Shown: piece by piece, positions 3,059 to 18,504 of the stretch
How positions within the stretch are numbered: the stretch's first letter is position 1
Layout: every line of letters begins with the position of its first letter
Source of the DNA: Clostridia bacterium
Lineage (GTDB): Bacteria > Bacillota > Clostridia > Christensenellales > Aristaeellaceae
Reading direction: 5' to 3'
Length of the DNA: 36,107 nt
Assembly (NCBI GenBank): GCA_030529995.1
Contig: JAUMVT010000024.1
Span: 1-36,107 of the forward strand
Program-made: the position numbers and the translations under genes
Notes under the pieces: model-generated
What the model saw: the letters and a program-made list of their open reading frames with translations, nothing else
The model's database searches: none
Told to the model about the DNA's origin: nothing

Positions 3059-3087
3059 ATTATAGTCATGCCTATCTTGTATGTCAA
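3059..3087 (-). promoter_or_regulatory. Consensus promoter for the aroF leader and operon
   Basis: On the minus strand TTGACA (3087-3082), a 17-base spacer and TATAAT (3064-3059) match the sigma-A consensus at all 12 positions. Confidence 0.88.
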
Positions 3088-3662: not shown

Positions 3663-4217
3663 TCACGCTGCCGTCCACGTCACCGTATCAAGAATGGTGG
3701 TCATGGTGTCCTGCTGAGCAGGATCGTTATAGCTGGCGGTAAAAATGTAGGAACCGAAAGCTTCATCAGAAACCACATATTGCAGCATATACACGGCGTA
3801 GCCCTCCACCTCGTAGTAGCAATGGGCGCACAGGGCTGTCTTGCCGTTCAGCTCCGTCAGGGCTGCGGACAGGACGCTTGTGTTCTCAATGGTCACGCTT
3901 TCCCCGCTGACCTGGGTTACAATATCCTCCTGCACATTTTCCGCATACACTGCCGGGTCAACCGCCGTTAAATCCTGTACGGTTTCGCTCCATACCACGT
4001 TAATGTTGGGATGCGCCGTGGCGGATGCATCGTAATCCGGATAGAGCATGAACCACACCTGACCGTCCGTCTTATCATAGGTATTGCCGTACATGCCGGC
4101 ATCAAAGGTCATGGAAAAGTCACCGAAATTGAAGGTTTCCAAATCATCATCGGCCAAGGCCGTCATGCAGCTTACGAGCAGTATCAGCGCCATCAGGCAT
4201 GCAGCAATTCGCTTCAT
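3663..4217 (-). CDS. Secreted protein or lipoprotein of unknown function
   Basis: This encodes 184 residues. The N-terminus is a signal peptide (MKRIAACLMALILLVSC...). It contains LVSC, which fits a lipobox, and also an ALA-D site that would suit signal peptidase I, so it is either a lipoprotein or a freely secreted protein. The mature part is acidic and rich in aromatic residues (FNFGDFSMTFDAGMYG, WFMLYPDYDA). It has the feel of the PsbP/DUF1795-like fold seen in other Clostridial lipoproteins, but I cannot confirm that. TAAGGAG lies six bases before the ATG. The gene follows the InlB/CBM lipoprotein gene by 84 bases, with a hairpin between them, and probably belongs to the same GH3-led transcription unit. 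Confidence 0.7.
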   Translation of the reverse strand: MKRIAACLMALILLVSCMTALADDDLETFNFGDFSMTFDAGMYGNTYDKTDGQVWFMLYPDYDASATAHPNINVVWSETVQDLTAVDPAVYAENVQEDIVTQVSGESVTIENTSVLSAALTELNGKTALCAHCYYEVEGYAVYMLQYVVSDEAFGSYIFTASYNDPAQQDTMTTILDTVTWTAA

Positions 4218-4301: not shown

Positions 4302-5720
4302 TTACTGACCAGTGATGTCCGTGTTCTTGGGATAACCTTCACCCCAGCTCAGCTCCGTATCACTGCTGATGTGGATGCAGTCGATCATGGGTGCGGTGGC
4401 ATACATGGTGCCGGAAGAACCCATCTGCCGATCATTGTTCACCACCAGTCGAATCACGTTGTCGCCCTTCTTCAGCTTCAGGCTGTTGGTGATAAAGAAG
4501 TCGGTAAAGGGCTGCTTCTGATCATCCGAATAGCCGTTAGCGCCTTCAATAGTCAGCGGAATGCTCAAGGTACCGAAGGACAGCTTTTCCCCGTTGACCT
4601 CCACCAGGAATTCCGTATCCGTCAGCTCGATGCCCATCATTTCCGTGCTCAGGCGCAGGTCAAGAGCGGCATCGTCCACGTCCTCAGCGGCGTTAACATG
4701 GAATTCCAAGAAGGCGCCGTTGTAGAACAAGTAGGTTACATAGTAGCCGCCGGAGGCTTCCGCATTGAAGCGATCCTTCACAATCAGCATGGTATCGGAC
4801 ACCGTGCCGGAATAGCCCAAGCCGGACTTGCCTTCAAAGTCGGTGTTTTCCGCCTCGAAGGTGTAGCGGTTGTACCACCGGGCGTACAGGGTCGTATCCT
4901 CCGTAATGCGGGTGGTGGCAAACTTGAACTTCTTGGTGCACGCCGGGTCGGTATACCAGTTGGAGGAATCCAGATAGTAGTCATCTCCACGGCTGGGGGT
5001 CTGACGGCTGATCTTGCCATTCTTCTCCACCTGAATGCGGCTGTAGACGCCGTCATTGGGTGCCCCTTCATAATTCCACATGAAGGTGACGGTGAAGTAT
5101 TCCTTACCCTCTGCCTTCTGCTGCCAGCCGGCGTACACGGTGGTGTCCGCCTCCACAGCAGTGGCGAAGTCGTATGCCGTGGTTGCTTCCGCATCCGTAT
5201 ACCAGCCGGAGAACAGGTAACCTTCCCGACTGGGGGCACTGGGCTCGCCTACAGATGCGCCTACGGCAACCGTCTCCGTGGTGCTTTCGCCACCATCGTA
5301 GTTAGCATCGAAGGTCACCGTGACACCGGAAGCCTTCCACCCTGCGTAGAAGGTGGTATCCTCCGTCAGGCTGTACTCAAAGTCAGCCGCTTTGGTGCAT
5401 GCCGCATCCGTATACCAGCCAAGGAACTCATAGTTTTCCCGGCCGGGCGCAGCAGGTTCTTCCGCCACATCATCGTAGGCGACGGTCTGTGTTTCCCCGT
5501 CAGGTGCACCCTCATAGTTCAGGTCGAAGGTTGCCTGAATGGTCTTTTCCTCTGCAGCGGTTTCTGTGTTCTCCTCTGTCTGTGCCGCAGGAGCTTCCGT
5601 CGCCGTGGCAACGACAGAAGTGGATGTATTGCCGGAGGTGCTCGATCCGCAGGCGGTCAGCACAAACGCCATGACACACACGATCAGGAGCAGAAGCAGC
5701 CGTTTCGTCATCTTTTCCAT
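4302..5720 (-). CDS. Lipoprotein with three InlB-type repeats and a C-terminal carbohydrate-binding-like domain
   Basis: This encodes 472 residues. A lipoprotein signal ends in LTAC at about residue 24, followed by a Ser/Thr/Glu-rich linker. Three copies of the Listeria-Bacteroides (InlB B) repeat follow, recognisable by repeated FLGWYTDAACT, FSGWYTDAEAT and SNWYTDPACT with T(T/D)xYAxW endings (about residues 60-270). The remainder begins YTFEAEN and has the beta-rich character of CBM6/CBM35-like modules, including DNVIRLVVNN and a C-terminal PMIDCIHI strand. It would sit on the outer face of the membrane and bind glycans or protein partners. The ATG at 5726 is too close to GAGGG; the one at 5720 has six bases of spacing. 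It lies 125 bases downstream of the large GH3 gene on the same strand, which suggests a joint role. Confidence 0.8.
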   Translation of the reverse strand: MEKMTKRLLLLLIVCVMAFVLTACGSSTSGNTSTSVVATATEAPAAQTEENTETAAEEKTIQATFDLNYEGAPDGETQTVAYDDVAEEPAAPGRENYEFLGWYTDAACTKAADFEYSLTEDTTFYAGWKASGVTVTFDANYDGGESTTETVAVGASVGEPSAPSREGYLFSGWYTDAEATTAYDFATAVEADTTVYAGWQQKAEGKEYFTVTFMWNYEGAPNDGVYSRIQVEKNGKISRQTPSRGDDYYLDSSNWYTDPACTKKFKFATTRITEDTTLYARWYNRYTFEAENTDFEGKSGLGYSGTVSDTMLIVKDRFNAEASGGYYVTYLFYNGAFLEFHVNAAEDVDDAALDLRLSTEMMGIELTDTEFLVEVNGEKLSFGTLSIPLTIEGANGYSDDQKQPFTDFFITNSLKLKKGDNVIRLVVNNDRQMGSSGTMYATAPMIDCIHISSDTELSWGEGYPKNTDITGQ

Positions 5721-5800
5721 GTTCATCCCTCATTATGCGCCCTGCCGGTTCGCCTATTCTCGAACACCTTCGGCACAGACGATGTACTTTGTGGACAGTC

Positions 5801-5845: not shown

Positions 5846-8800
5846 TTACTGCACGTTGATGGTCAGCATGTAGTAAGCAATGGGTTCCGTCTTGGCTGCT
5901 GCGCCTCCCATACCCGGTCCCATCATCATGTTCTGATTGCTGCTCTGGGTATTCTCAGGGGTTACAGAAATGACAGCCGTGTAGGTGCCGGCAGCAGCAG
6001 GTGCGCCGGACAGGGTACCGGTGGTTTCATCCAGGGTAATGCCTTCAGGCAGTGCGCCATCGGCGATTGCGTAGGTGTAGGCGGTTTCGTCCTCGTCGTT
6101 GTCCATGTACAGCACGCAGGGAGAACCGGCCAGTTCAACGCCCACCTGAGCGCCGGAAACAGCCTGTTCAGGATCGTCCAGAATGAACTTGGAGGCAACC
6201 TCCACCTTCACGGTGCGGGTCGTGCTCAGCCAGTTATCAATGCGGCAGGTAACGGTTGCTTCGAAGGAGCCGCTTTCGGTTGCCTTGCCGCTGATCACGC
6301 CGTCATCGGAGCAGGTGATGCCAGCAGGCAGTGCGCCCATGGACACATAGTAGGTTGCGTTGTCACCGCACTGTTCGGCGTATTCAGCCACGGCAATGTT
6401 CAGGGAGACTTCTTCGTTCTGGGCGGTTTCGATTGCGTCCTCACCGTTGAAGGTCTTCAGGTTGATGCCGTTCTGAATGGTACCGGCGGTAGACTGGGTA
6501 TACAGCACATACTGTGCGGTAATCCGAGACCAGTAATACTGGGTGGGATTGTAGACAGCATTGGCGTTGCCTGCAATATCCGTCTCGTAGGTGTAGGTGG
6601 AACCGATGGCCGAGCCGGTAGCATCCGTGCCGTCCACATAGCCGGTGTAAACGCCGGCCTTGTTGTCCGTGCCGTCAGCTGCATGCCAGGAGCCGGACAG
6701 GTAGTTCTGCACAGAGTTGTCGGTCAGTGCGTCAGCACCCAGAGGCCAAGTGGTGCAGCGGACAATCAGATCCATGGGCCAGTAGGTATCGGATCCGCCG
6801 TAGCCGTCCGTGGTGAAGTAGCCCATCCAGCCCCACTCGTCACGGACGAGGAGTTTGGCAAAGGCATAGTTGCAGTTGGGATAGATATCGCCGATGCAGG
6901 CCAGAGAGCCCATGGTCGCCTTTGCGCCGCCCTCCTGCATAGCAATCTGGAAGATCTTGAAGTAGTTTTCACGGCAGGCCTGCTCGGTGCAATAGGTGGA
7001 CATGCCGCCGCGGCTTGCTTCCTGATCGTTCAGGGCGATGTGCTTGAATACACAGGACACGCCGCGGCTCTGTGCGCCGGAGACGACAGCTGCTGCGATC
7101 ATGCCGCCATGATAGCCGTCCTGAGAGAAGTAGTCGTTGTACCGTCCGCAGAAGGGCGTTCTGTGGGTATCGCCGCCGGGGCCCCACCAGTCAGCACCTT
7201 CGTTGCCGGTCTTGAGCATGCCCAGGTTGCCGTACATGACGCCGATGGTGTAGCACAGTTCCTTGTTCCACGTTGCAGCCATGGTGGACATGCTGCCCCA
7301 GTTGTAGCCGTTCCATTCACGGGGGCTGTCGCCGCCGTTGGACTTGACCTTTTCAATCGAGGCAATGGCTGCGGTAGAGCCGCCGTTGGAGCAAACTTCC
7401 ATGACATCCCACCAGGTGAGCTGATTCATGAACTCGCTCCACTTTTCTGCACCATCAGCATCCGCCAAGTCAACGCCGAACATGTCACGATACAGCACAT
7501 TCACGGCTTGCTCATCCAGGGTTACCTGGGTAGCATCCACACCGTTGATGGTGCCGCTTTCCAGGAATTCGGCAAATTCATCCGCATAGGTGGAAGCGAA
7601 GGAGGTGCCCCACATGCCCACACCGAAGCCCTTGAAGCCGCTGATGGCCTCGCCGGTTACGGAGTCAACAATGTTGTGTGCGCCATCGCCTCCGGTCTTG
7701 GCAGAGCCGTTCTTCCACTCTTCCCAGATTTCCGCCACGGTTACGCTGTCAGCGTAGGTGGGATAGTCGGCATCGTAGCCGTCCAGATTGTTCCGCAGGG
7801 CGAAGTACTCGTCCGAGCGAATCAGGTCTTCTTTGGTGACAGGGGTGTACTTAGGATTGGTGCAGCCGCCGAAGATGTTTTCATACTCTTCGGTATAGGC
7901 ACTGCTGGCACGGGTCATGAGGGTCATGTCCGCATCGCCGGTGCTGTCCTGATCCACACGGGTAATGAAGTCTTCCACATTGTCGCCGTCGGCATTTTCC
8001 TTGGTGTAATCAAGGTCCCAACCAAGGCTGTTGTAGATGTTTGCCTGGCTCAGCACGTTTTCGGCGGCGTTGCCGGAGTAATCATCGTAGCCCATGATCA
8101 CATCGGCGGTCAGCTCGCCCAGCTTCACCACCATGTTTTCGCTCTTCACGGTGTGAGAATCGGTCTGGAAGCGGATTTCGTAGCCATTGCCGGCATCCAG
8201 TTCATAGGTGGACTTGCCGTTGCCGTTGGCATCGTTGTAGTCGAAGGAAGCGAAGTCCTGAATGTTCACAGACAGGGTCACAACCTGGGACTGACCGGGC
8301 TGCAGCAATGCAGTCTTCTCGAAGGAGACAAGAACGATGTCGCTCTTTTCCACTTCGCCGTCAATGTAGGGCGCATGGGCGTATACTTCCACCACGTCCT
8401 TGCCTGCCACGCTGCCGGTGTTGGTAACCTTCACCTTAAAGGTCATCACAGCATCCTGACATTCTTCGCTGTTCAGGTCAATAACGCCATTCTCGGCAGT
8501 CTTGGCCATGAAGGCATCCCACTTGGAGGTGTCTGCATCCACCAGCTCCCAGTCAAAGTCGGTGTAGCTCAGGCCAAAGCCGAAGGGATACACCACGGCG
8601 CTGTCATAGTCCAGCTTACCGTCCACGGCAGCAGTTTCGTAGTACTTGTAGCCCAAGTAAATGCCTTCATCATACTGAAGGTTAACACGGTACTCGTAGC
8701 CGAAGCCGTAGTTGAACATGCCGGAAAGTCCGGTGCAGGGGCCGGCAACTGCGGGCCAGGTGGTGTACTCCGTGCCTGCCTCGGCATCGCTTACACGCAC

Positions 8801-9835
8801 CAGAGCGGGATAGCGTGTTGCCTCATCCCCCACCTGTGCCTGATAATCGCTGTCCGCCGGGAAGGCATCCAGCTCCTCCAGGGTGTAACCGTAGGCCATG
8901 GTATTGACAAAGTTGCCGGAGGTGGGCAGGGTGGTGCCGGCAAAGCCGTACATCTGCCGCTGCCATGCGGTGTTATACCAGGTGGGATCAGCCGTGAAAT
9001 CGCTGTACCATATGGCTTCCGTTTTGCCGGAAGGGTTCACGGTACCGCTGAGGATTTCAGCAAAGGCTGTCGCCCCGTTTTCACCGTACTCGTTGGTCCA
9101 GACAATGCCGTCCACGCCGTCATCGTTCTGCAGCAGGGACATTTCAAAGGTGGTGGCACCTGTCCAGGCCACAATAACCACCTTGCAATGTTCCTTCACA
9201 TAGGCGATCATGCGCTCCTCATTTTCCGTCATCATGAGAGAATGCTTGTACTCCGTCACGGTGCCGTCAGCATTCGTTACGGAATAGAGGTTATCATGCT
9301 GGAAGGTGGTAGCACCTGTCGCATCACCCTGATAGGTGGTGTTCTCTTCGGCATCATAGGCGCCGCTGAGTACCTCGGGCATGTTGGGCAGCAGCGCCGT
9401 AGGAGCATCCGCGCTCTCGCCGTAGGTACGGTTCAGGGTGATGACGCCTACATCGCCGTAGATTTCCAGGCTCTGCTCCTGGCTCTTGGAGATCGCATCA
9501 GGATCATAGGAGTCTGTGGCAATTTCCGTAGGGTTCACATCGAAACCTTCAGCCGACAGGGCGGTGATGAAGTCATCCGCCTGGGAGCCGAACACGCTGA
9601 TCTTGCTCTTCTTGTTCAGAGGAAGCGCGCCGGTGTTCTTCAGCAGCACCATGCCTTCCTCGTCCTTCTGCAGGTCAACGACCTTTGCAGCCGCCACGGC
9701 CTCTGCGTGGGTGGTGAAGTCAGTCACATAGCTGACGCCGGTCTCAAAGCCGGTTGCCATGGCCGGTACAGCCAGTGTGAGCGCCGTCAGGGTGCTCATG
9801 ACTGCTGTCCATGTTTTACGAAATCCCTGTTTCAT
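5846..9835 (-). CDS. Giant secreted, circularly permuted family 3 glycoside hydrolase with C-terminal Ig-like domains
   Basis: This encodes 1329 residues. GH3 enzymes cleave beta-linked glucosides or related glycosides with retention. A signal peptide (MKQGFRK...AVPAMA) is followed by the domain that normally comes second in GH3: EEGMVLLKNTGALPL near residue 50, then SGTVNPSGKTEA. Next comes a fibronectin-III-like domain (SVAGKDVVEVYAHAPY, about 478). Only then comes the barrel domain with THRTPFCGR (about 892), KHIALNDQEASRGG (about 933) and the nucleophile in TTDGYGG (Asp 1010). Two He_PIG-like Ig domains close the protein (LPAGITCSDDGVISG about 1172, LPEGITLDETTGTLSG about 1269). The usual DGPSG substrate loop is not preserved. 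The ATG at 9835 is six bases from GGAGGA; an upstream TTG is too close. A LytTR-type site lies upstream. Confidence 0.88.
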   Translation of the reverse strand: MKQGFRKTWTAVMSTLTALTLAVPAMATGFETGVSYVTDFTTHAEAVAAAKVVDLQKDEEGMVLLKNTGALPLNKKSKISVFGSQADDFITALSAEGFDVNPTEIATDSYDPDAISKSQEQSLEIYGDVGVITLNRTYGESADAPTALLPNMPEVLSGAYDAEENTTYQGDATGATTFQHDNLYSVTNADGTVTEYKHSLMMTENEERMIAYVKEHCKVVIVAWTGATTFEMSLLQNDDGVDGIVWTNEYGENGATAFAEILSGTVNPSGKTEAIWYSDFTADPTWYNTAWQRQMYGFAGTTLPTSGNFVNTMAYGYTLEELDAFPADSDYQAQVGDEATRYPALVRVSDAEAGTEYTTWPAVAGPCTGLSGMFNYGFGYEYRVNLQYDEGIYLGYKYYETAAVDGKLDYDSAVVYPFGFGLSYTDFDWELVDADTSKWDAFMAKTAENGVIDLNSEECQDAVMTFKVKVTNTGSVAGKDVVEVYAHAPYIDGEVEKSDIVLVSFEKTALLQPGQSQVVTLSVNIQDFASFDYNDANGNGKSTYELDAGNGYEIRFQTDSHTVKSENMVVKLGELTADVIMGYDDYSGNAAENVLSQANIYNSLGWDLDYTKENADGDNVEDFITRVDQDSTGDADMTLMTRASSAYTEEYENIFGGCTNPKYTPVTKEDLIRSDEYFALRNNLDGYDADYPTYADSVTVAEIWEEWKNGSAKTGGDGAHNIVDSVTGEAISGFKGFGVGMWGTSFASTYADEFAEFLESGTINGVDATQVTLDEQAVNVLYRDMFGVDLADADGAEKWSEFMNQLTWWDVMEVCSNGGSTAAIASIEKVKSNGGDSPREWNGYNWGSMSTMAATWNKELCYTIGVMYGNLGMLKTGNEGADWWGPGGDTHRTPFCGRYNDYFSQDGYHGGMIAAAVVSGAQSRGVSCVFKHIALNDQEASRGGMSTYCTEQACRENYFKIFQIAMQEGGAKATMGSLACIGDIYPNCNYAFAKLLVRDEWGWMGYFTTDGYGGSDTYWPMDLIVRCTTWPLGADALTDNSVQNYLSGSWHAADGTDNKAGVYTGYVDGTDATGSAIGSTYTYETDIAGNANAVYNPTQYYWSRITAQYVLYTQSTAGTIQNGINLKTFNGEDAIETAQNEEVSLNIAVAEYAEQCGDNATYYVSMGALPAGITCSDDGVISGKATESGSFEATVTCRIDNWLSTTRTVKVEVASKFILDDPEQAVSGAQVGVELAGSPCVLYMDNDEDETAYTYAIADGALPEGITLDETTGTLSGAPAAAGTYTAVISVTPENTQSSNQNMMMGPGMGGAAAKTEPIAYYMLTINVQ

Positions 9836-9907: not shown

Positions 9908-9916
9908 ACCTTATCA
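9908..9916 (-). promoter_or_regulatory. Candidate -10 region of the large GH3 gene
   Basis: On the minus strand an extended -10-like TGATAAGGT (9916-9908) lies exactly as far (75 bases) from the LytTR site as the TGCTACACT of the other GH3 promoter. No good -35 box precedes it, as expected for an activator-dependent promoter. It is a weak match on its own. Confidence 0.4.
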
Positions 9917-9987
9917 TGTTTTTCCGGGGCATGGCGCATTTTGCCCCCAAACGGACGGCAAGGGGCACAAAATCCTTCGCCGGCGGA

Positions 9988-10017
9988 ATGAACGGCGTTT
10001 CAAGCGGCATGAACGTA
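9988..10017 (-). promoter_or_regulatory. LytTR-type direct-repeat binding site A
   Basis: On the minus strand TACGTTCAT (10017-10009) and GCCGTTCAT (9996-9988) are separated by 12 bases. Nine-base repeats of this form with 12-13 base spacing are the known target of AlgR/AgrA/LytR regulators. The first half fits the consensus fully; the second differs at its first base. Over 33 bases this region is identical at 26 positions to site B at 16230-16259. Confidence 0.72.
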
Positions 10018-10036
10018 CAGATGTGCATACCGTGAG

Positions 10037-10076
10037 GCATCAAAAAAGGCGGCCTTTCGGCCGCCTTTTTTGATGC
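10037..10076. terminator. Bidirectional rho-independent terminator
   Basis: AAAAAAGGCGGCC, a TTTC loop and GGCCGCCTTTTTT form a long stem with a T6 run on either strand. It lies just past the stop of the 990-residue GH3 gene (minus strand) and insulates the next promoter, whose LytTR site begins 20 bases further on. Confidence 0.93.
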
Positions 10077-10080
10077 TGTG

Positions 10081-13053
10081 TTATGCTGCCTGTTCAGGCT
10101 TCTTTTTCTTTGCTGCCTTGACCAAAACCAGCACGCCCCATAGCAGCAGCACCGCCGGCACGGCAATATCTGCTGCCGTCAAGGCAATGCGCCAGTAAGC
10201 AGTGCTGGTCTCCACCACGGTGTCGCTGCCGATGCCGTTCAGGGCATTGCTGTTGGTCACCGTGTACAGCACGTGCTTCATGGCTTCCTGCAGCACGTAC
10301 ACATCCAGCGGATCACTGCTTTCGAAGAACTTGGTGGGGGCAATGGTATCCAGCCACAGATCACCGCCGGCATACAGCTGCTGTTCCAGATTCATGTGGC
10401 TTTGACCGGAGGCAAAGTCGCTGATGACCGTCCCCTTGAAGCCCCATTCATTCCGCAGCACTTCCGTCAGCAGGGCGTAGCTGCCGCCTGCCCAGCGGCT
10501 GCCGATCCGGTTGAAGGAGGACATGATGGCCAGCGTGCCGCCTTCCTTCACCGCATGCTCGAAGGGTTTCAGGTACAGTTCCCGCAAGGATTGCTCTGTC
10601 AGCCAAGTGCACACGCCCCCACGGTGGGTTTCCTGCTCATTGGCCACAAAGTGCTTCACATAGGTCTTCAGCCCCTTCTTGGCGGCACCTGCCACGACTT
10701 TTGCAGCCATGGTGCCGCTGAGGGTGCAGTCCTCGCTGTAATACTCAGGATTGCGGCCGCCGAAGGGCGTACGGTGGATATTCACTGCCGGCGCATACCA
10801 GCCGGTGTAAGGCGTGTTGTTGTTGGCATCGCCGATCAGAGCCTCATCGCCAATGGCTTCGCCCATGCGCTCCGCCAGATCCTGATTCCAGGTTGCCGCC
10901 AGCACGCACTCGCTGGCATAGAAGCAGGTATCATAAATGGTGGACGTGCTGCCCATGAACTTGGTAAAGCCGGAAGGGCCATCCGTTGCGATGGTGGCCG
11001 GCATACCGATGTAATCAATGGCAATGGTTTTGAAAGCTGCGTCGGACAGGGTATCCCAAATGGTATTGAGGGTAATGCGGCTGAGCATGGCGTTCCACTG
11101 TTCGTCGTCGTAGTCCTTGCCGATCATTTCGTAGAGCTGCAGCCCGTCGGCACTCTTCTTCTTGGCCGGGGTGCGGGCTGCATTGGCGGCGGTAACAGCT
11201 TCATCGGCGGCCGTCAGGGGATTGCCGGAATCCGTGCTCTTCAGTGCTGCCTGGAATCCTTCATAGTTCTCCATTTTCTTTTCATCAGCAGTACGGTTTT
11301 TCGGCCAGGTGCCTTCCCAGTTGCTCCGGGACAGGATCGTATCCAGCTGATCATCCACATCGTCAAAGCGGTTTTCCACCGTATAGCCTGTGGTTGTATC
11401 CGTATCATAGCAAACCGTGCTTACCAGAGTGGTGGTCACGCTGTCCAGCACCGTATGCGCATCGGAGCGAACAGAGAAGATATATTCACCCTCGTCCAGC
11501 TCATAGCCGCTGTGACCATTGCCGTTCTTGTCATCAGCATCATAGGAAGCAAAGTCGTAGGGCGTAAAGGAAACGGTATAATCTCCGCTTTCGCCGGGCT
11601 GGAGCAGGTCCGTCTTGACGTAGGCCACCAGCACCACTTCCGCCTTTTCAATGCCGCCGGCAATATATGGCGCATGCGCATAGACCTGCACTACATCCTT
11701 GCCAGCCACGCTGCCGGTGTTGGTCACAGTCACGGTAATGGTCATGGCTTCATCCGCCTTTGTCCAGTCGGATGCGGACTGAATGCCGGTCTCCTTGATG
11801 GTCTGGGTAAAGGTGGTGTAGGACAGGCCGTAACCGAATGGATACACCACATTTTCCTGATACCAGTCTTCATCCCCTGCGCCACGGGTTTCAAAGTAGC
11901 GGTAGCCTACGTAAATGCCTTCTTCATAGTCAATGTACCAAGCATTCTGGGCACTGCCGTTCAGGGTGTAAGCATCGCTGTTCAGCTCTCCATTGCAGCT
12001 GTAATTCTGCACCGCAGGGATCGCCATGAAATCCCGGGCGAAGGTATCCACCGTGTGGCCGGAAGGATTGACGGTACCGTTCAGCACCTCGCCCAGGGCA
12101 ATGATGTCGGACTCGCCGGGCATACCGATCCACAGTGCCCCATCCACATGGGAAGCGAAGTCGTAATCCACCATGGTGGCATCGCCCCCGTTGTTGCCGT
12201 CCAGAAAGCCCAGCTCCAAAGGCGTAGAGCTGTTAATCACCAAAATCACATGATCAAAGTTTTCGCAGGCCATTTTCAGCATGTCCTGCTCGTTTTGATC
12301 CAGCTCCAGGTAGTGATCTTCGCCAGAGGCTGCACCTGTTACGGGAGTGGTACCGTCAGATTCCCACATGGTGGTGGGCAGGTCGTAGTTCTCACCGCTG
12401 ACGCGGGTAATGACCACCAGTGCCGCATCCGAATACTCCGCAAAGGAAGCCTTCACGCTGTCATCATAGGCAGAAGCAGCGGTTTCGCCCGTGGCAAAGC
12501 CCGTGACGATGCTGCCGGACAGCATGGAAGGCGAGCTGGCACGGCCGCTGCCGGATTTGCTGCTATCATTGTAGAAAGCCTCCAAGGTGGGATTGGTGAC
12601 AAACCCGGCCTGCTGTAGACTATCATAAATGGTAGGGGCGTTATCCGAGCTGCTGCCCACGCTGCCGGAGCTGCCGTAGGCCAGGTTCACGGAATTCTTG
12701 CCGAACACGCTGACCTTTGCGCCGCTTGTCAGAGGCAGACAGTTTTCGTTTTTCAGCAGGATGATGCCTTCCTCGTTGATCTCCAGATTCAGGTCATTGG
12801 CTGCCTGAAGAGCGGATGCCTTGTCCGTCACACCATCCGCCAATGCGTAAGAGCCTGAAGCAGAGCCGCTGACCTCCGTCCGCTCACCGCCGAAGAGCAT
12901 GTCCATGAGTCCCGACAGGTACTGGGTGGCTACAATGGTCGCAACCAGCAGCACAGCCATCACTGGAACGGACACGCCCATCCACACTCGCTTGCCCTTG
13001 GTGTTCAAAAACTTTCTTTCTCTTGTCTTCTTTTCCCGTTTTTCCTTGCCCAT
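10081..13053 (-). CDS. Membrane-anchored, circularly permuted family 3 glycoside hydrolase
   Basis: This encodes 990 residues. A basic N-terminus (MGKEKREKKTRERK) is followed by a transmembrane helix (about 24-46). A second helix (AVPAVLLLWGVLVLV, about 960-980) is followed by a Lys-rich tail, so both ends are cytoplasmic and the enzyme faces outward. Domain order is permuted: EEGIILLKNENCLPL, LNGTVNPSGHT and the FN3-like SVAGKDVVQVYAHAPY (about 454) come first. The barrel then carries DGPSG (about 691), NIHRTPFGGRN (about 762), KHFVANEQETHRGG (about 801) and nucleophile Asp 879 in VISDFASG. All main active-site motifs are intact. AAAGGAAAGGA lies before the ATG at 13053; the frame is also open to 13086, but without a good ribosome site. 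It follows the GtrA-like gene by 71 bases and ends at a strong terminator. The exact sugar is unknown. Confidence 0.9.
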   Translation of the reverse strand: MGKEKREKKTRERKFLNTKGKRVWMGVSVPVMAVLLVATIVATQYLSGLMDMLFGGERTEVSGSASGSYALADGVTDKASALQAANDLNLEINEEGIILLKNENCLPLTSGAKVSVFGKNSVNLAYGSSGSVGSSSDNAPTIYDSLQQAGFVTNPTLEAFYNDSSKSGSGRASSPSMLSGSIVTGFATGETAASAYDDSVKASFAEYSDAALVVITRVSGENYDLPTTMWESDGTTPVTGAASGEDHYLELDQNEQDMLKMACENFDHVILVINSSTPLELGFLDGNNGGDATMVDYDFASHVDGALWIGMPGESDIIALGEVLNGTVNPSGHTVDTFARDFMAIPAVQNYSCNGELNSDAYTLNGSAQNAWYIDYEEGIYVGYRYFETRGAGDEDWYQENVVYPFGYGLSYTTFTQTIKETGIQSASDWTKADEAMTITVTVTNTGSVAGKDVVQVYAHAPYIAGGIEKAEVVLVAYVKTDLLQPGESGDYTVSFTPYDFASYDADDKNGNGHSGYELDEGEYIFSVRSDAHTVLDSVTTTLVSTVCYDTDTTTGYTVENRFDDVDDQLDTILSRSNWEGTWPKNRTADEKKMENYEGFQAALKSTDSGNPLTAADEAVTAANAARTPAKKKSADGLQLYEMIGKDYDDEQWNAMLSRITLNTIWDTLSDAAFKTIAIDYIGMPATIATDGPSGFTKFMGSTSTIYDTCFYASECVLAATWNQDLAERMGEAIGDEALIGDANNNTPYTGWYAPAVNIHRTPFGGRNPEYYSEDCTLSGTMAAKVVAGAAKKGLKTYVKHFVANEQETHRGGVCTWLTEQSLRELYLKPFEHAVKEGGTLAIMSSFNRIGSRWAGGSYALLTEVLRNEWGFKGTVISDFASGQSHMNLEQQLYAGGDLWLDTIAPTKFFESSDPLDVYVLQEAMKHVLYTVTNSNALNGIGSDTVVETSTAYWRIALTAADIAVPAVLLLWGVLVLVKAAKKKKPEQAA

Positions 13054-13124
13054 AACGATTCCTTTCCTTTCATGCTTCAAAGGCAATTTGATGCCTTTCT
13101 TCCAAGGGATCCGTTTCCATCAGG

Positions 13125-13688
13125 TCATACCTGCGCCGGTTTTTCTTCCTTGCCGGTGGGAAAGATGATCTTATTCGCAAAGAAGAAAATCACCATGGAC
13201 ACGCCGCCATTAAGCACCGTGGTGCCGATGTTGTACACCCAGTCCGGCACAAATTCTCCTGCCACTGCCACCCAAATGCAGTTGATGGAGTTCACAATGC
13301 AGGTGATGACGCAGAAAGCCAAGATGTACCATGCAATCTGCTTCACCGTATTCCCTTTGCTGCGGAAAACCCAGTACTTCTGAATGGGGAAATTCAGGCA
13401 CTCTCCCACGATCATGGCCACCATATAGGCACACAGGTACGGCAAACCGCCGTGCGCCACATCATAGCCGAAGATATTCCACTTGAAGGTTGCCCCCAAC
13501 AGGGTCATATCAATGCCCGGCCAGCCAAAGTCCACCATGGGCAGGCCACTGAACATGCCGGGCAGAAACTCCAGCATGAAATACTTCAGCACCGTAATGG
13601 CATTGGATACAATGACAAACAGTCCGCCTTCCCGAACCCACTCTGACAGTTTGGGATGAGCGGTTTCGAAACTTTTCCACAGCCGCAT
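13125..13688 (-). CDS. GtrA-like membrane protein
   Basis: This encodes 187 residues. About four transmembrane helices are visible: GLFVIVSNAITVLKYF, LCAYMVAMIVGECLNF, WYILAFCVITCIV and GGVSMVIFFFANKII. The FPIQKYWVFRS sequence after the second helix is the usual GtrA signature (N-F-x(3)-R/K-x-W-V-F). GtrA family proteins are proposed to move lipid-linked sugars across the membrane or to help build cell-wall or teichoic-acid decorations. The GTG at 13697 overlaps the stop of the upstream GH3 gene (GTGA) but is one base from AAGGAG. The ATG at 13688 has ten bases of spacing, so I chose it. Its place between two GH3 genes in one operon suggests that the glycosidases act on the same surface glycan. 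Confidence 0.8.
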   Translation of the reverse strand: MRLWKSFETAHPKLSEWVREGGLFVIVSNAITVLKYFMLEFLPGMFSGLPMVDFGWPGIDMTLLGATFKWNIFGYDVAHGGLPYLCAYMVAMIVGECLNFPIQKYWVFRSKGNTVKQIAWYILAFCVITCIVNSINCIWVAVAGEFVPDWVYNIGTTVLNGGVSMVIFFFANKIIFPTGKEEKPAQV

Positions 13689-13693
13689 CCTGA

Positions 13694-16102
13694 TCACACT
13701 CCTTCTCTTGTATCCAGCTTTTCCCGGTGCAGGAAGTGATGAATTAACCTTCCCAGTCCTCGAAAGCCGTGTCCGTTGGCCATCATCAGCAGATCTTCCG
13801 CCATCTTCATGGAAACCATGCCGTTCATCATTTTGCCGATGCCCCGAAAAGGAATGTTGTAGATGAACAGCAGGTTCAGATCCGGCTTGCCTGCCGCAAT
13901 GCTCTTCTCCCGCATGCGCTTAAGCTTCCTGCACAGGGCTCTGGCCAATGGATTCTTGGCATAGGCCATTTGCAGCACCGCATCATTCATCTTCAAAGGC
14001 TCGTTCCTTTGCCATAAATGGGGCGGGATGTCATGACCCAACAGAGCGGCAAACCGATCGTCCGGCACATCCTGCAGCTCGCACTTTTCATAGCAGGTCA
14101 GTTTTTTCCCTGCATAGGGATTGGGTGCATCCGTGCCCTGCACCGTCAAGGAGGTCTTCAGGCGGATATCTTCACAGCTGGCACCCACACGAATTTCGTA
14201 TCGTCCGCCTTCGATTTCCCAGGCATTTGTCTCCGTGTTCCAGTAGCGGAATGCCTTGTCATCCAGCGGAATGGTCACTTCCTTCGTTTCGCCTGCCTCC
14301 AGATACACCTTAGCAAAGCCTTTCAGCTCCTGCTTGGGGCGGAAAATCTTTGCACCGGGCAGTGCCACATAAACCTGCGCAACCTCCGCACCGGCACGCT
14401 CCCCGGTGTTGGTCAGGGTAAAGCGAACTTCCTGATCGGTAACTTTTAAGTCTTCATAGCGGAAGCCGGTATAGGAAAGGCCGTAACCAAAGGGGAACTG
14501 CACCAGTGCCTCCGCTGTCTGGTAGTATCGATAGCCCACATACACTCCTTCCCGATATTCACTGGTAGTTTCTTGCCCGGGATAGTATCGGCTCACGGCC
14601 GCCTGCTCCAGCGAAAGGGGGAAGGTTTCGGATGTTTTGCCGCTGGGGTTTACCACACCGGACAGCACCCGAAGCACGGCTCCGGCTGCCGCCTGTCCGC
14701 CAAGGCCAGCCCACACCACGGCTTTGCAGTGATGAAGCCAAGGCATCTCGATCACACTGCCGGAGGTAATCACTGCAATGATATTTCGGTTCACCTTGTA
14801 CAGACGCTCCAGCAAATCCAGCTGATTCTTCGGCAGGCGCAGGTGGGTGCGATCCAGTCCCTCTGCTTCATAGCCTTCCGTCAGCCCCAGATAAAGCACC
14901 ACATATTCCGCTTCCTTGGCCAGCTTTTCCGCCTGCTGCGCCAGTGCCTCATCCGGCTGATCCAGCCGCTGAAATCCGGGCGCAATCCCCAGCACATTCG
15001 GAAAATAATCCGGCAGCAGATCCAACGCCCGATCTTCTCTTGTGGCATTGACCATACTGCTGCCCGCTCCCTGAAAGCGAGGTGTCAGCACAAAGTCGCC
15101 AATCACGGCAATCTTTGCGCTGTGGGCAAGGGGCAAAACGCTGCCCTCGTTTTTCATCAGGATAATGGATTCTTCCGCCACGGCAGCTGCAATGCGATGA
15201 TGCTCCTCCTCATCCACCGTTGCCTGTCTGCGGCTGCCGTAGGTATCAAGAATCAGGGTCAGCAGCTCATCTACCCGCTGATTCACTGTTTCTTCCGTGA
15301 TTTTTCCTTCCTGCACGGCATGCATCAAGGCAATGGGGCCGTCATCTCCGCAGCCGGGCATTTCCAGGTCACATCCTGCACGGACGCCCTCCACAAAGTC
15401 GTTGTCCCCGCCCCAGTCGGTGATCACGGCACCGTCATAGCCCCATTCGCCCCGCAGAATCTCCTTCAGCAGATGGGGATGCTCATTGGCATAAACGCCG
15501 TTCACCAGGTTGTAGGAGGTCATGACGCACTTAGGCTTGCCCTCCTTCACGGCGATCTCAAAATTGGTCAGATAAATTTCCCGCAGGGTTCGTTCATCCA
15601 GCACGGAATCGCTGGCCATGCGATGGTCTTCCTGACTGTTCACGGCAAAATGTTTCACGCAGGCCGACACGCCGTTTGCCTGCACCCCCCGGATGTACGC
15701 CGCCGCCAGCTTGCCTGCCAGATAAGGATCCTCCGCATAATACTCAAAATTTCGGCCGCACAACGGGCTTCGCTTGATATTGATGCCCGGTCCCAGCAGC
15801 ACCTGCACATCCTGTGCCAAGGCTTCCCGGCCGATTACCTGCCCCGCCTTTTCCGCCATGTCCACATTCCAGCTGTTGGCAATGGCACTGGAGGAAGGCA
15901 TGCAGGTGGCCTTGGTGGACGCATTGAGTCCCAGATGATCCCCTGCCTCCGCCTGCTTGCGCAGACCGCTAGGTCCGTCCGACAGCGTAATGGCCGGAAT
16001 GCCTCGCTTTTCATTGTCACGTGTATGCCACACGTCATGGCCTGCCAGCAGTGCACACTTTTCCGTCAGGGTCATTTGCCGGATGAGTTCGGCGTGTTTC
16101 AT
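13694..16102 (-). CDS. Family 3 glycoside hydrolase, cytoplasmic, normal domain order
   Basis: This encodes 802 residues with no signal peptide. Domain order is classic: the barrel first, with SDGPSGLRKQ near residue 40, NIKRSPLCGRNFEYYAEDP, KHFAVNSQEDHR, MTSYNLVNG and nucleophile Asp 229 in VITDWGG. The alpha/beta sandwich domain follows (EESIILMKNEGSVLPL, SGVVNPSGKTSETFP), then an FN3-like domain (AEVAQVYVALPGAK). The last 150 residues or so are an extra helical extension (IPFRGIGKMMNGMVS, NGHGFRGLGRLI) that I have seen in other Clostridial beta-glucosidases. Beta-glucosidase or beta-xylosidase activity is likely. AAAGGA lies nine bases before the ATG at 16102; the frame stays open far upstream, but the family begins here. 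It is the first gene of the GH3-GtrA-GH3 operon, behind LytTR site B. Confidence 0.93.
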   Translation of the reverse strand: MKHAELIRQMTLTEKCALLAGHDVWHTRDNEKRGIPAITLSDGPSGLRKQAEAGDHLGLNASTKATCMPSSSAIANSWNVDMAEKAGQVIGREALAQDVQVLLGPGINIKRSPLCGRNFEYYAEDPYLAGKLAAAYIRGVQANGVSACVKHFAVNSQEDHRMASDSVLDERTLREIYLTNFEIAVKEGKPKCVMTSYNLVNGVYANEHPHLLKEILRGEWGYDGAVITDWGGDNDFVEGVRAGCDLEMPGCGDDGPIALMHAVQEGKITEETVNQRVDELLTLILDTYGSRRQATVDEEEHHRIAAAVAEESIILMKNEGSVLPLAHSAKIAVIGDFVLTPRFQGAGSSMVNATREDRALDLLPDYFPNVLGIAPGFQRLDQPDEALAQQAEKLAKEAEYVVLYLGLTEGYEAEGLDRTHLRLPKNQLDLLERLYKVNRNIIAVITSGSVIEMPWLHHCKAVVWAGLGGQAAAGAVLRVLSGVVNPSGKTSETFPLSLEQAAVSRYYPGQETTSEYREGVYVGYRYYQTAEALVQFPFGYGLSYTGFRYEDLKVTDQEVRFTLTNTGERAGAEVAQVYVALPGAKIFRPKQELKGFAKVYLEAGETKEVTIPLDDKAFRYWNTETNAWEIEGGRYEIRVGASCEDIRLKTSLTVQGTDAPNPYAGKKLTCYEKCELQDVPDDRFAALLGHDIPPHLWQRNEPLKMNDAVLQMAYAKNPLARALCRKLKRMREKSIAAGKPDLNLLFIYNIPFRGIGKMMNGMVSMKMAEDLLMMANGHGFRGLGRLIHHFLHREKLDTREGV

Positions 16103-16149
16103 ACGGTTCGTTCCTTTCCAAGTCCTGTGTATCATGTAGGCTTGATGGT

Positions 16150-16158
16150 AGTGTAGCA
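16150..16158 (-). promoter_or_regulatory. Candidate extended -10 of the GH3-GtrA-GH3 operon
   Basis: On the minus strand TGCTACACT (16158-16150) is an extended -10 element without a recognisable -35 (GTTTTT stands there). It lies 75 bases downstream of LytTR site B, the same distance as at the other GH3 promoter. Confidence 0.5.
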
Positions 16159-16229
16159 CGCCGGTTTGAAAAAAAAACTTTTTCTGCCCCAATGGCCATG
16201 CACGGGAGCAAATCGCCACCGGCAAGAGA

Positions 16230-16259
16230 ATGAACGGTATATGAAACGGCATGACCGTT
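16230..16259 (-). promoter_or_regulatory. LytTR-type direct-repeat binding site B
   Basis: On the minus strand AACGGTCAT (16259-16251) and ACCGTTCAT (16238-16230) are 12 bases apart. The second half fits the LytTR consensus fully. The site lies in the divergent region between the GH3 operon and the sensor kinase/LytTR regulator genes, so it could serve both directions, although the orientation and conserved -10 distance favour the GH3 side. Confidence 0.72.
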
Positions 16260-16429: not shown

Positions 16430-17767
16430 ATGTCCGAATACTTTGACCTGTTCTTCGTGCAGGGCGTTCGTGGTGCGTCCTATATTCCGACTCTTTGCCT
16501 GCAGGTGCTGGCGGTCATCCTGCTGATGAATCAGCTTCCCCGCACATGGCGCGGCTGGTGTCTGAAAGCGGTGGAATGGCTGCTATGCTGTGCCGCCTTT
16601 CAGGGAATCAGTGCTGTTTGTTACACCTTGCTCGGCGGCGGGGAGCTGCTGAGTCCCGTATCCATGGCATTGTATATTCTGCTGTATGCCCTCCTCCGCA
16701 GCAAGTATCCGCTGAAGACCCGGATCGTCCGCGGCACCATGTTCATGGCCTGCGTCATGGTGACCGTGCCCATCTCCTCTCCCCTCAGTGATCTGATCAA
16801 GGATGCCAATCCCACCCTGTACTACAGCTGGGGGCAATACCTGACCCTGCTGATCATCTTCCTGCTGACAGGCTTTGTGGTGTGGTATCTGCGCCACTTC
16901 TCCATGGATGCCGACAGCGCCATCCAGTTTCAGTACGTGGTGCTGCAGGCCAGCGTTTCTCTGGTTATTGTGGCCATTGAGCTGGTACCTGCCTGGGTGG
17001 AAATTCCCCGTGTATCCAACGTACTGACCTGCATCGGCCTGTGGGGCATTGACCTGCTGACCTATTACCTGTTTTATTCCATTGCCCGGAGCACCAACGA
17101 GAACATGATGCTCCACAGCACCAAACACCGCATGGAACTGGAGCAGGAGAAGTATGAAGCCAACCGAGTCAACTTTGACGAACTCCGTGCCATGCGGCAT
17201 GAATTGAAGAACTACACCTTTTATTGCAAGGCGCTGTTGGACGCAAAAAAATATGACGAGCTCAGCGACTTCTTTGCCGAGACGCTGGAAAGCAAAAGCT
17301 CTGTGCTCACCAGTTTCGACTGCGGCAACTATATGGTGAACGTGATTATGAATCACGAAATCAACGCTGCCCGGGAGCACGGGGTGCGCATCACCACCAA
17401 TATTCTGGTGCCTGACGCCCTGCCTTACAGCAGTGAGGATCTGTGCAGCCTGCTGTCCAATCTGCTGGACAACGCCATTGAAGCCGCTTCCGTTTCCGGG
17501 GCGGAACTGCCTCAGGTTTCCTTTTCCATGTGTCCCAAGCAGGCCTATCTGTTCATTCATCAGGAAAACTCCGTCAGCAACGACATTGCGTCCGACGCCC
17601 GGCTCAGCTTGAAGACCACCAAGCAGCGCCGGGAACTGCATGGCTACGGCACCCGCATTATCCGCAGCATTGTGGATAAGTACAACGGCTCCATCAAGTA
17701 CACCATGAAGAACGGCATGTTCGTCACCGATGTAATGCTGGAGCTGCCCAAGGAGGAAGAAGCATGA
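16430..17767 (+). CDS. GHKL-type sensor histidine kinase (AgrC/HPK10 class)
   Basis: This encodes 445 residues. The first 220 residues or so are hydrophobic, with about six membrane helices and no large outside domain, as in AgrC-type receptors. A coiled linker (MELEQEKYEANRVNF) leads to the phospho-acceptor motif LRAMRHELKNY (His 257). The ATP-binding domain has LLSNLLDNAIEAA (N box) and HGYGTRIIRSI (G box). Kinases of this group sense peptides or membrane-associated ligands and pass phosphate to LytTR regulators. ATAAGGAGG lies before the ATG. The stop overlaps the regulator start (ATGA), so the two are translationally coupled. No agrB- or agrD-like gene is in the window, so the signal may be something other than a locally encoded peptide. 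Confidence 0.93.
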   Translation: MSEYFDLFFVQGVRGASYIPTLCLQVLAVILLMNQLPRTWRGWCLKAVEWLLCCAAFQGISAVCYTLLGGGELLSPVSMALYILLYALLRSKYPLKTRIVRGTMFMACVMVTVPISSPLSDLIKDANPTLYYSWGQYLTLLIIFLLTGFVVWYLRHFSMDADSAIQFQYVVLQASVSLVIVAIELVPAWVEIPRVSNVLTCIGLWGIDLLTYYLFYSIARSTNENMMLHSTKHRMELEQEKYEANRVNFDELRAMRHELKNYTFYCKALLDAKKYDELSDFFAETLESKSSVLTSFDCGNYMVNVIMNHEINAAREHGVRITTNILVPDALPYSSEDLCSLLSNLLDNAIEAASVSGAELPQVSFSMCPKQAYLFIHQENSVSNDIASDARLSLKTTKQRRELHGYGTRIIRSIVDKYNGSIKYTMKNGMFVTDVMLELPKEEEA

Positions 17768-18504
17768 TCCGCTGGAATATTGCCATCTGCGATGATGAAA
17801 TCAACGCCCTGAGCCTGCTCTCCGGCGCGCTGGTCAACGCCTTCCGCAACTATGATGTGGATGCGGCGGTGGAAACCTTTGCCCGCCCGCAGCAGCTGCT
17901 GAACCGCATGAAAACATGCACCTTTGATTTGCTCTTTCTGGATATTGAAATGCCCGGCATGAGCGGCCTGAAGCTGGCCGATCAACTGCGAAAGGACGGC
18001 AATCTGCTGGACATCATCTTCATTTCCAATCGGGAAGAGCTGATCTTCGATGCTCTGCGTTTCAATCCCAAGGGATTCATCCGCAAGAGCCGCTTCTTCA
18101 CGGATGTGGACTGTGTGATCAAAACCTACTTCACCTACCGCAAGGAGAACACCACGGTCAAAACCATTATCGTGGAGGATCGGGATCAGGTGACCTACAT
18201 TGCCATCGACACGCTGATGTACATCGAGAGCATCGGCAAAAAACAGCTTGCTCATCTTGTCGGCAAGGAAACGCCTACAGAGATGCGCAAGCAGATGCAG
18301 CAGCTGGAAACAGAGCTGACCGACTATGGTTTTCTCCGCATTCACAAAGGCTACCTGGTGAATTACCGATTTATTCAGAAAATCTGCGACACGGACGTTG
18401 TCCTCACCAACGGTCAGCGGCTTGCCATCAGCCGCAGAAGGCTGACGGAGATCAAGGAAAAATACATGGAACTGATGCAAAGCGAAGGAGCGCTTATGGT
18501 GTAA
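17764..18504 (+). CDS. LytTR-family response regulator
   Basis: This encodes 246 residues. A receiver domain (AICDDEINALS; phospho-acceptor Asp 60 in LFLDIEMPGMSG; FISNREE) is followed by a LytTR DNA-binding domain (about 140-240), recognisable by YIESIGKKQLAHL, GFLRIHKGYLVNYRFI and ISRRRLTEIKEKY. LytTR regulators bind pairs of nine-base direct repeats 12-13 bases apart. Two such pairs lie in this window, each in front of a GH3 transcription unit (16230-16259 and 9988-10017), which makes those units the probable targets. The gene overlaps the kinase gene by four bases and ends before a strong terminator. The family assignment is firm; the targets are inferred. Confidence 0.94.
   Translation: MIRWNIAICDDEINALSLLSGALVNAFRNYDVDAAVETFARPQQLLNRMKTCTFDLLFLDIEMPGMSGLKLADQLRKDGNLLDIIFISNREELIFDALRFNPKGFIRKSRFFTDVDCVIKTYFTYRKENTTVKTIIVEDRDQVTYIAIDTLMYIESIGKKQLAHLVGKETPTEMRKQMQQLETELTDYGFLRIHKGYLVNYRFIQKICDTDVVLTNGQRLAISRRRLTEIKEKYMELMQSEGALMV

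Follow-up and report, generated by a model that had tools for sequence, protein, structure and literature searches.

In the stretch of Clostridia DNA analyzed here (36,107 nucleotides; called the window, and the entire contig C75 of a 2.54 Mb draft genome, G000), two near-identical LytTR-type direct-repeat sites, A and B, each lie upstream of a row of genes led by a glycoside hydrolase family 3 (GH3) gene. Sites of the same kind stand before GH3 genes in relatives, at a fixed distance from a -10-like hexamer. We hold with good confidence that A and B bind the LytTR response regulator encoded beside site B and that this regulator switches on both GH3 units. As judged from the comparison with relatives, where such sites precede GH3 genes beside the same regulator, it is very probably this regulator that switches on the GH3 enzymes. 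Genomes, contigs and loci are cited below by our G, C and L numbers where they need to be told apart.

Paired sites in the window

Both sites are read on the minus strand, A as TACGTTCAT-N12-GCCGTTCAT (window 9988-10017) and B as AACGGTCAT-N12-ACCGTTCAT (16230-16259). A preliminary description of this DNA had claimed nine-base repeats 12 bases apart at these positions, agreement of the two 33-base blocks at 26 positions, and a full fit of two of the four half-sites to the LytTR consensus; reading and aligning both sites bears out all three. The general consensus of a LytTR half-site is [TA][AC][CA]GTTN[AG][TG], from which the other two half-sites are off by one position each, one mismatch per pair. 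Beyond the site the flanks of A and B are unlike each other. The distance of 75 bases to a -10 element given in that description also holds, with 74 bases lying between each pair and its candidate -10. Site A stands ahead of the genes for GH3A, a lipoprotein-like protein and a small secreted protein, and site B between the GH3B, GtrA-like and GH3TM genes and the divergent kinase and regulator genes. The description's statement that each site precedes a GH3-led transcription unit is thus right as to gene order, from which two such units on the minus strand, the GH3A row and the GH3B row, would follow.

A two-block pattern allowing up to 3 mismatches matches the window twice and 100 shuffled versions of it not once. 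The search of the whole genome that had been proposed returned A and B and no further match in the assembly, and none for the reversed pattern. The pattern was derived from A and B themselves, and the informative part is the lack of other matches.

Conservation in relatives

When 300 genomes of the family were searched for the regulator, 5 of them, counting the one the window comes from, had a match at E 1e-40 or better. The relatives are 66% identical in G147 (a second copy 32%), 51% in G167, and 35% each in G287 and G099. Among 396 genomes of the order, 7 reached 1e-32, again with its own, and on named contigs the best 80 of 355 regulator loci were taken, with the first-ranked one 34% identical. 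The general consensus, a scan that used no window sequence, was run on the window and eight relative loci at up to 1 mismatch. It picked out A, B, one pair in G147 and one in G167, the latter two both upstream of a GH3 gene; the other six relative loci had none, and the reversed-sequence control gave one pair, in the window.

A pattern built from the A, B, G147 and G167 sites was run on 15 genomes. With zero mismatches it matched its own four source sites and nothing else, and at up to 1 mismatch the sole addition, in G000, was one copy of a dispersed repeat. The pattern is specific near a full match only. Thus, in place of the many unrelated promoters that would have spoken against the preliminary description, there are four sites upstream of GH3 and one repeat copy, and the site occurs in both relatives that keep the regulator and the GH3 genes. 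The other 12 family genomes, among them G099 and G287 with their 35% regulator relatives, have no match at up to 1 mismatch. Two new places lie upstream of permuted GH3 genes: G167:C382:22974, with 2 mismatches, and G147:C27:52531, one of six matches with 3 mismatches in G147. Half-sites were also noted at G147:C27:61260-61328. Sites of this kind appear to serve GH3 units, since site A has no adjoining two-component gene and the G167 site on C301 lies between regulator and GH3. The repeat copy, G000:C23:11052, was rejected as a regulatory site, being a member of a dispersed repeat and lying between two genes that are not GH3 by eye. Variants of this repeat occur on C21, C24 (two), C35, C65 and C97, and its end mimics the second half-site.

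The half-sites were also scored with a matrix made from 12 half-sites of G000, G147 and G167, against a background of 3806 blocks. When each genome was left out in turn, the G000 units scored 24.5 and 21.8 (0 and 1 background blocks as high), the G147 units 30.9, 16.4 and 17.6 (0, 11 and 5), and the G167 units 23.3 and 20.8 (0 and 0). The three-genome matrix then found new units upstream of GH3 in two genomes from two other families of the window's order, namely G432:C7 (23.4; 0 of 3806; regulator 41% identical) and G589:C33 (17.9; 3 of 3806; regulator 36% identical). Over 35 GH3 rows, eight score at least 17: five of the six units that had supplied training pairs, the GH3A unit of L158, G432:C7 and G589:C33; the lowest 23 reach 7.2 at most. 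Start codons in this test came from a simple ribosome-site score. The window's GH3B unit was missed through a misplaced start and scores 28.1 in a later scan; the L014 start is doubtful.

A simpler pattern was run on seven genomes. At up to 2 mismatches it gave 6 matches, 5 upstream of GH3 units and 1 of a kinase gene; all six places were known beforehand, and what informs is that there were no others. With 3 mismatches, 4 of 19 matches belong to loci of these kinds (one at site B of the window, one at the kinase gene of G432, two within GH3 loci of G589), and 15 of 19 have no GH3, kinase or regulator match inside 1.5 kb. An unbiased repeat search recovered the pairs of G167:C301, window site A and L014 (shuffle p 0.005 to 0.015), together with an equally strong unrelated pair upstream of GH3TM in the window (p 0.01), and the other sites did not stand out from shuffles in it (p 0.07 to 0.44). 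By itself this search is weak evidence. Taken together, the comparison with relatives supports the earlier proposal that the regulator pair would control both GH3 units.

A fixed promoter layout

Nine units were selected by their half-site pair, and the -10 was scored with E. coli values for the sigma-70 -10 frequencies. A -10-like hexamer starts 82-83 bp past the start of the second half-site in eight of the nine. The mean -10 score there is 5.1, as against an overall mean of -1.9 (standard deviation 1.4) for offsets 20-109, and no shuffle or circular shift (1000 of each) equalled it at any offset. The spacer between the half-sites is variable; the half-sites themselves, like their distance to the -10, are conserved in five genomes from three families. 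The Coriobacteriaceae locus L014, where the GH3 start is doubtful, has a weaker pair with the same core and its best -10 at 82 bp. A sigma-70 scanner called a full promoter at neither A nor B. Because of this, and because the -10 of site A is weak, the assignment of the -10 rests on the position kept in relatives. The -35 elements of the window's two promoters are poor.

Counting positions as slots, in bp upstream of the -10, the main pair occupies slots 104 and 83, and slot 42, give or take 1 bp, is taken by a third half-site, which played no part in building the matrix. The test, with the -10 fixed at 82-83 (114 for the ninth unit), gave slot-42 scores of 1.5, -0.6, 8.9, 7.2, 11.2, 11.7, 11.7, 4.1 and 7.3, with Fisher p about 2e-13 against shuffled spacers over the nine units. 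A weak further half-site is present at slot 62 (p 0.004). Taken alone, the slot-42 half-site of the GH3A unit has a shuffle p of 0.03, and its counterpart at site B (16185..16196) has p 0.08 and is unconvincing; the possible half-site at 16205..16216 forms a pair scoring 18.7 with the second half-site of B. In the LytTR systems reviewed in the part of PMC6193735 available, the repeats usually lie 10 bp ahead of the -35. By our own arithmetic (9+10+6+17) the proximal repeat would then start at slot 42, so the third half-site occupies the place expected for the known kind, with the main pair as an addition.

The regulator clade and its GH3 neighbours

The association with GH3 was followed in 96 regulator loci, of lengths 3 to 21 kb plus the 36 kb window. 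A GH3 match is present in 18 of the 20 loci whose regulator scores at least 114 bits (L016 and L176 lack one, and that of L095 is weak), as against 4 of the 76 at 110 bits or below (L036, L044, L050 and, partially, L056). Six genomes supply ten of the 20 top loci, and 16 of the 20 belong to the order of the window, so that the contrast is partly taxonomic. On a tree of 97 regulators the GH3 label needs 3 changes, compared with a shuffled mean of 20.1 (0 of 500 as low). One clade of 19 regulators, with support 99/88, consists of 18 GH3-linked members and L176; four further GH3-linked regulators fall with the C40 paralogue of G000 into a second group (94/70).

G432 has four paralogous LytTR regulators (C6, C7, C8 and C9) with permuted GH3 near each, and another half-site pair (L172 10701) directly follows a regulator gene of G432 and precedes a small lipoprotein-like gene. 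GH3_C matches number 46 in G432 (about 1.8 Mb) and 57 in G589 (about 2.0 Mb), compared with 8 in G000, many of them in open reading frames of 900-1400 aa; this is a large GH3 expansion. In G000 itself, a second LytTR regulator (C40:36321-36992, L212) is distant (22% identical), with a kinase and two GH3 genes no more than about 10 kb away. In the tree it falls with the regulators of Gemmiger and Bifidobacterium loci that also have a GH3 match.

Proposed mechanism and alternatives

The preliminary description placed a LytTR regulator with its GHKL kinase beside site B, and the Pfam matches agree. The kinase matches PF14501 at 70.8 bits, and its gene overlaps that of the regulator. By hydropathy its input region has five membrane segments; His257 and the residues of what we take to be the N and G boxes are invariant in 6 of 6 aligned kinases. 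The regulator matches LytTR (PF04397) at 58.0 bits (cut-off 22.6) and the receiver domain (PF00072) at 54.4 bits (cut-off 30.2), with receiver domains the sole matches in a search of solved structures. Its Asp60, presumably the conserved phosphoacceptor of the receiver, is invariant in 5 of 5 aligned regulators. Upon a cue from outside, the membrane kinase would phosphorylate the regulator, which would then bind the distal pair and the weaker half-site near slot 42, the occupied half-sites lying roughly along one face of the helix. From there the regulator could recruit RNA polymerase to the window's promoters without a good -35, and the GH3A - lipoprotein and GH3B - GtrA - GH3TM units would be switched on. 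Activation is a better guess than repression, and it fits the poor -35 elements at the two promoters. As a guess, the cue is tied to the substrate or product of the enzymes. AgrB (PF04647) was found in none of five genomes, which argues against an Agr-type peptide signal, with the caveat that the control set, matched in 1 of 14 genomes and never above cut-off, hardly tests the sensitivity of that search.

Several observations weigh against this reading of the sites. At up to 3 mismatches the four-site pattern matches 111 times over the 15 genomes compared with 104 for the reversed control, and the simpler pattern 25 times compared with 28. The matrix gives middling scores at L050 (14.1), L096 (12.2), L015 (10.7) and L095 (10.4), and finds no site at either of the two GH3B-GtrA units of G147, nor at the majority of GH3 genes whose neighbouring regulator is less than about 37% identical. 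The hexamer at 82-83 is the best of its region in six of the nine units, tied in one and second in one, and in the ninth, a G147 GH3 unit beside a kinase gene, the best -10 comes some three helix turns further on, at 114 bp. The two slot-42 half-sites of the window are the weakest of the nine, and the GH3A-like unit of G147 has a period of 20 instead of 21 and a weak first half-site. A good -35 is present in the G147 unit beside the kinase gene and in the G432 unit, which argues against a need for an activator there. Finally, the G000 assembly is a draft, 92% complete.

That the sites mainly autoregulate the kinase and regulator genes, their proximity to GH3 following from divergent gene order, would suit site B, which lies within the divergent gap ahead of the kinase gene, and the similar pairs that immediately precede the kinase gene of G432 and of G589 (L172 8494; L177 8139, which is G589:C34:53439). 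However, the kinase gene does not adjoin site A, G167:C382, G147:C27:52531 or the L158 site, the G167:C301 site comes after the regulator and ahead of GH3, and in a scan of both strands the pairs before GH3 genes read towards GH3 with the -10-like hexamer following on that side. As a general account it appears quite improbable to us. Given the pairs ahead of that gene in G432 and G589, some members of the clade probably do autoregulate, and site B may act on the divergent kinase and regulator genes as well as on GH3.

LytTR half-sites resemble each other across the whole family, and G000 encodes two further proteins that match the LytTR part; GH3 genes are also near the C40 one. Another LytTR protein of the same genome (C40 or C85), or more than one, could on these grounds bind A and B. 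Yet full sites were seen solely in genomes with a close orthologue of the adjacent regulator (0 of the 12 other family genomes at up to 1 mismatch), and the C40 and C85 stretches, when scanned, had no pair scoring 16 or more. We therefore regard binding by another LytTR protein as very unlikely. A relic of duplication between GH3 units, devoid of regulatory meaning, might be suggested by the multiplied GH3 genes of these genomes. It is scarcely credible in view of the dissimilar flanks, with no alignable upstream sequence seen around A and B, the different domain orders of GH3A and GH3B, and half-sites and -10 distance that persist while the spacer varies.

Beyond control of the two units by the adjacent regulator, a broader and distinctly tentative proposal is that of a LytTR two-component clade devoted to permuted GH3 enzymes, many of them membrane-anchored, and using a promoter class of its own (half-site slots 42, (62), 83 and 104). 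Regulators at the distal pair and at the proximal slot would act jointly along one helix face on three, sometimes four, half-sites. Such a clade would have members in three families of the order to which the window belongs, and in records that carry the names Lachnospiraceae and Coriobacteriaceae. If true, Gram-positive bacteria would have in it a counterpart to the sensor systems in charge of polysaccharide utilisation loci. With a site code linked to the clade, the GH3 units under it could be predicted, and sorting the 46 and 57 GH3_C matches of the two relatives by regulator would be useful. The fixed geometry would offer a direct test of how a LytTR regulator acts at a distance.

Relation to known systems

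LytTR systems are mostly known from toxins, bacteriocins and competence, and ComE belongs to the same LytTR two-component type. In the portions of the sources available, AgrA and VirR likewise combine a receiver and LytTR regulator with a kinase, paired direct repeats upstream of promoters, and activation of the kind proposed here (PMC4227749, PMC2838878). In contrast to AgrA, VirR and ComE, the presumed targets in the window are glycoside hydrolases. The VirR boxes lie directly upstream of the -35 (same portions of PMC4227749, PMC2838878), whereas the main pair of the window starts 83 and 104 bp from the -10. The LytTR Regulatory Systems share the 9-12-9 repeats and consist of a LytTR regulator with a membrane protein, held apart from two-component systems in the part of PMC6193735 available. 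Unlike them, the window's regulator has a receiver domain and an adjacent GHKL kinase.

The pairing of LytTR and GH3 genes is already known. As far as the available text of PMC2914790 goes, Butyrivibrio proteoclasticus B316 has three LytTR regulators, each near a secreted GH3 with a C-terminal membrane helix, for which a role in carbohydrate sensing was proposed, and surface proteins with Listeria/Bacteroides repeats as well. The window is alike in that its LytTR regulator adjoins a membrane-anchored GH3: GH3TM has one membrane segment at each end (residues 23-41 and 960-978) and starts 3.4 kb from the kinase gene, so that here too a GH3 whose C-terminal end carries a membrane segment lies near the regulator. 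It differs in that the terms 'binding site' and 'promoter' are absent from the available text of PMC2914790, whereas here a cis-site, a regulon map, the permuted order and conservation across families are described. Within the excerpts available, a LytTR regulator is found in one Roseburia locus (PMC5320581), a LytTR gene beside cellulase genes rises on filter paper and xylan (PMC5733062), and the control of fibre enzymes in Firmicutes is called little studied (PMC5320581). In gut bacteria of the Clostridia type, too, such control has received little study. The cis-site, its link to a regulator clade, the regulon map and the layout were not found in the open-licence literature searched, and the fixed promoter layout is new here.

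Genes and other features of the window

Features of the window considered in this study; slots and distances are in bp upstream of the candidate -10
Feature	Position	Strand	Description	Basis
Small putative secreted protein	3663..4217	-	Possible gene 3 of GH3A unit	
Lipoprotein-like protein, Listeria-Bacteroides repeats (Flg_new)	4302..5726	-	Probable gene 2 of GH3A unit	Pfam
GH3A	5846..9835	-	Permuted GH3 (GH3_C - Fn3 - GH3_N, then Ig-like domains), 1329 aa	Pfam
Candidate -10 of GH3A unit	9908..9913	-	TAAGGT; weak hexamer, conserved position	
Site A, weak promoter-proximal half-site	9944..9955	-	TCCGTTTGGGGG; slot 42, score 1.5	
Site A, weak in-phase half-site	9964..9975	-	GGATTTTGTGCC; slot 62, score 3.0	
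Site A, second half-site	9985..9996	-	GCCGTTCATTCC; start 83 bp upstream	
Site A, distal half-site	10006..10017	-	12-mer TACGTTCATGCC; start 104 bp upstream	
GH3TM	10081..13053	-	Permuted GH3, 990 aa; probable gene 3 of GH3B unit	
GtrA-like membrane protein	13125..13697	-	Overlaps GH3B end	
GH3B	13694..16102	-	Ordinary GH3 domain order, 802 aa	
Candidate -10 of GH3B unit	16150..16155	-	TACACT, TG one base ahead	
Site B, very weak possible half-site	16185..16196	-	GCCATTGGGGCA; slot 41, score -0.6	
Site B, weak possible half-site	16205..16216	-	GCGATTTGCTCC; 22 bp past second half-site	
Site B, second half-site	16227..16238	-	ACCGTTCATTCT; start 83 bp upstream	
Site B, distal half-site	16248..16259	-	AACGGTCATGCC	
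GHKL sensor kinase	16430..17767	+	Multi-pass membrane input region; divergent from GH3B	
LytTR response regulator	17764..18504	+	Receiver PF00072 and LytTR PF04397	

GH3A, whose start was picked via the ribosome-site score, is probably secreted, and in both GH3A and GH3TM the order is permuted, with GH3_C ahead of GH3_N. A membrane segment was looked for in GH3B and none was seen; the pairing of GH3B with GtrA occurs twice in G147. The small protein, which had no match in a Pfam search, would belong to the GH3A operon. A lipoprotein-like gene adjoins GH3A-like genes in three genomes (window 4302-5726, L158 3267-3785 and L096 8146-8832), and relatives of the window's copy, which carries the Listeria-Bacteroides repeats, lie next to GH3 genes in G147 and G099. 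A terminator-like stem within site B on the plus strand was rejected, as none was called at site A and no plus-strand gene ends there. About 0.6 kb beyond the end of the GH3A row, a perfect TTGACA-17-TATAAT lies on the minus strand at window 3059-3087.

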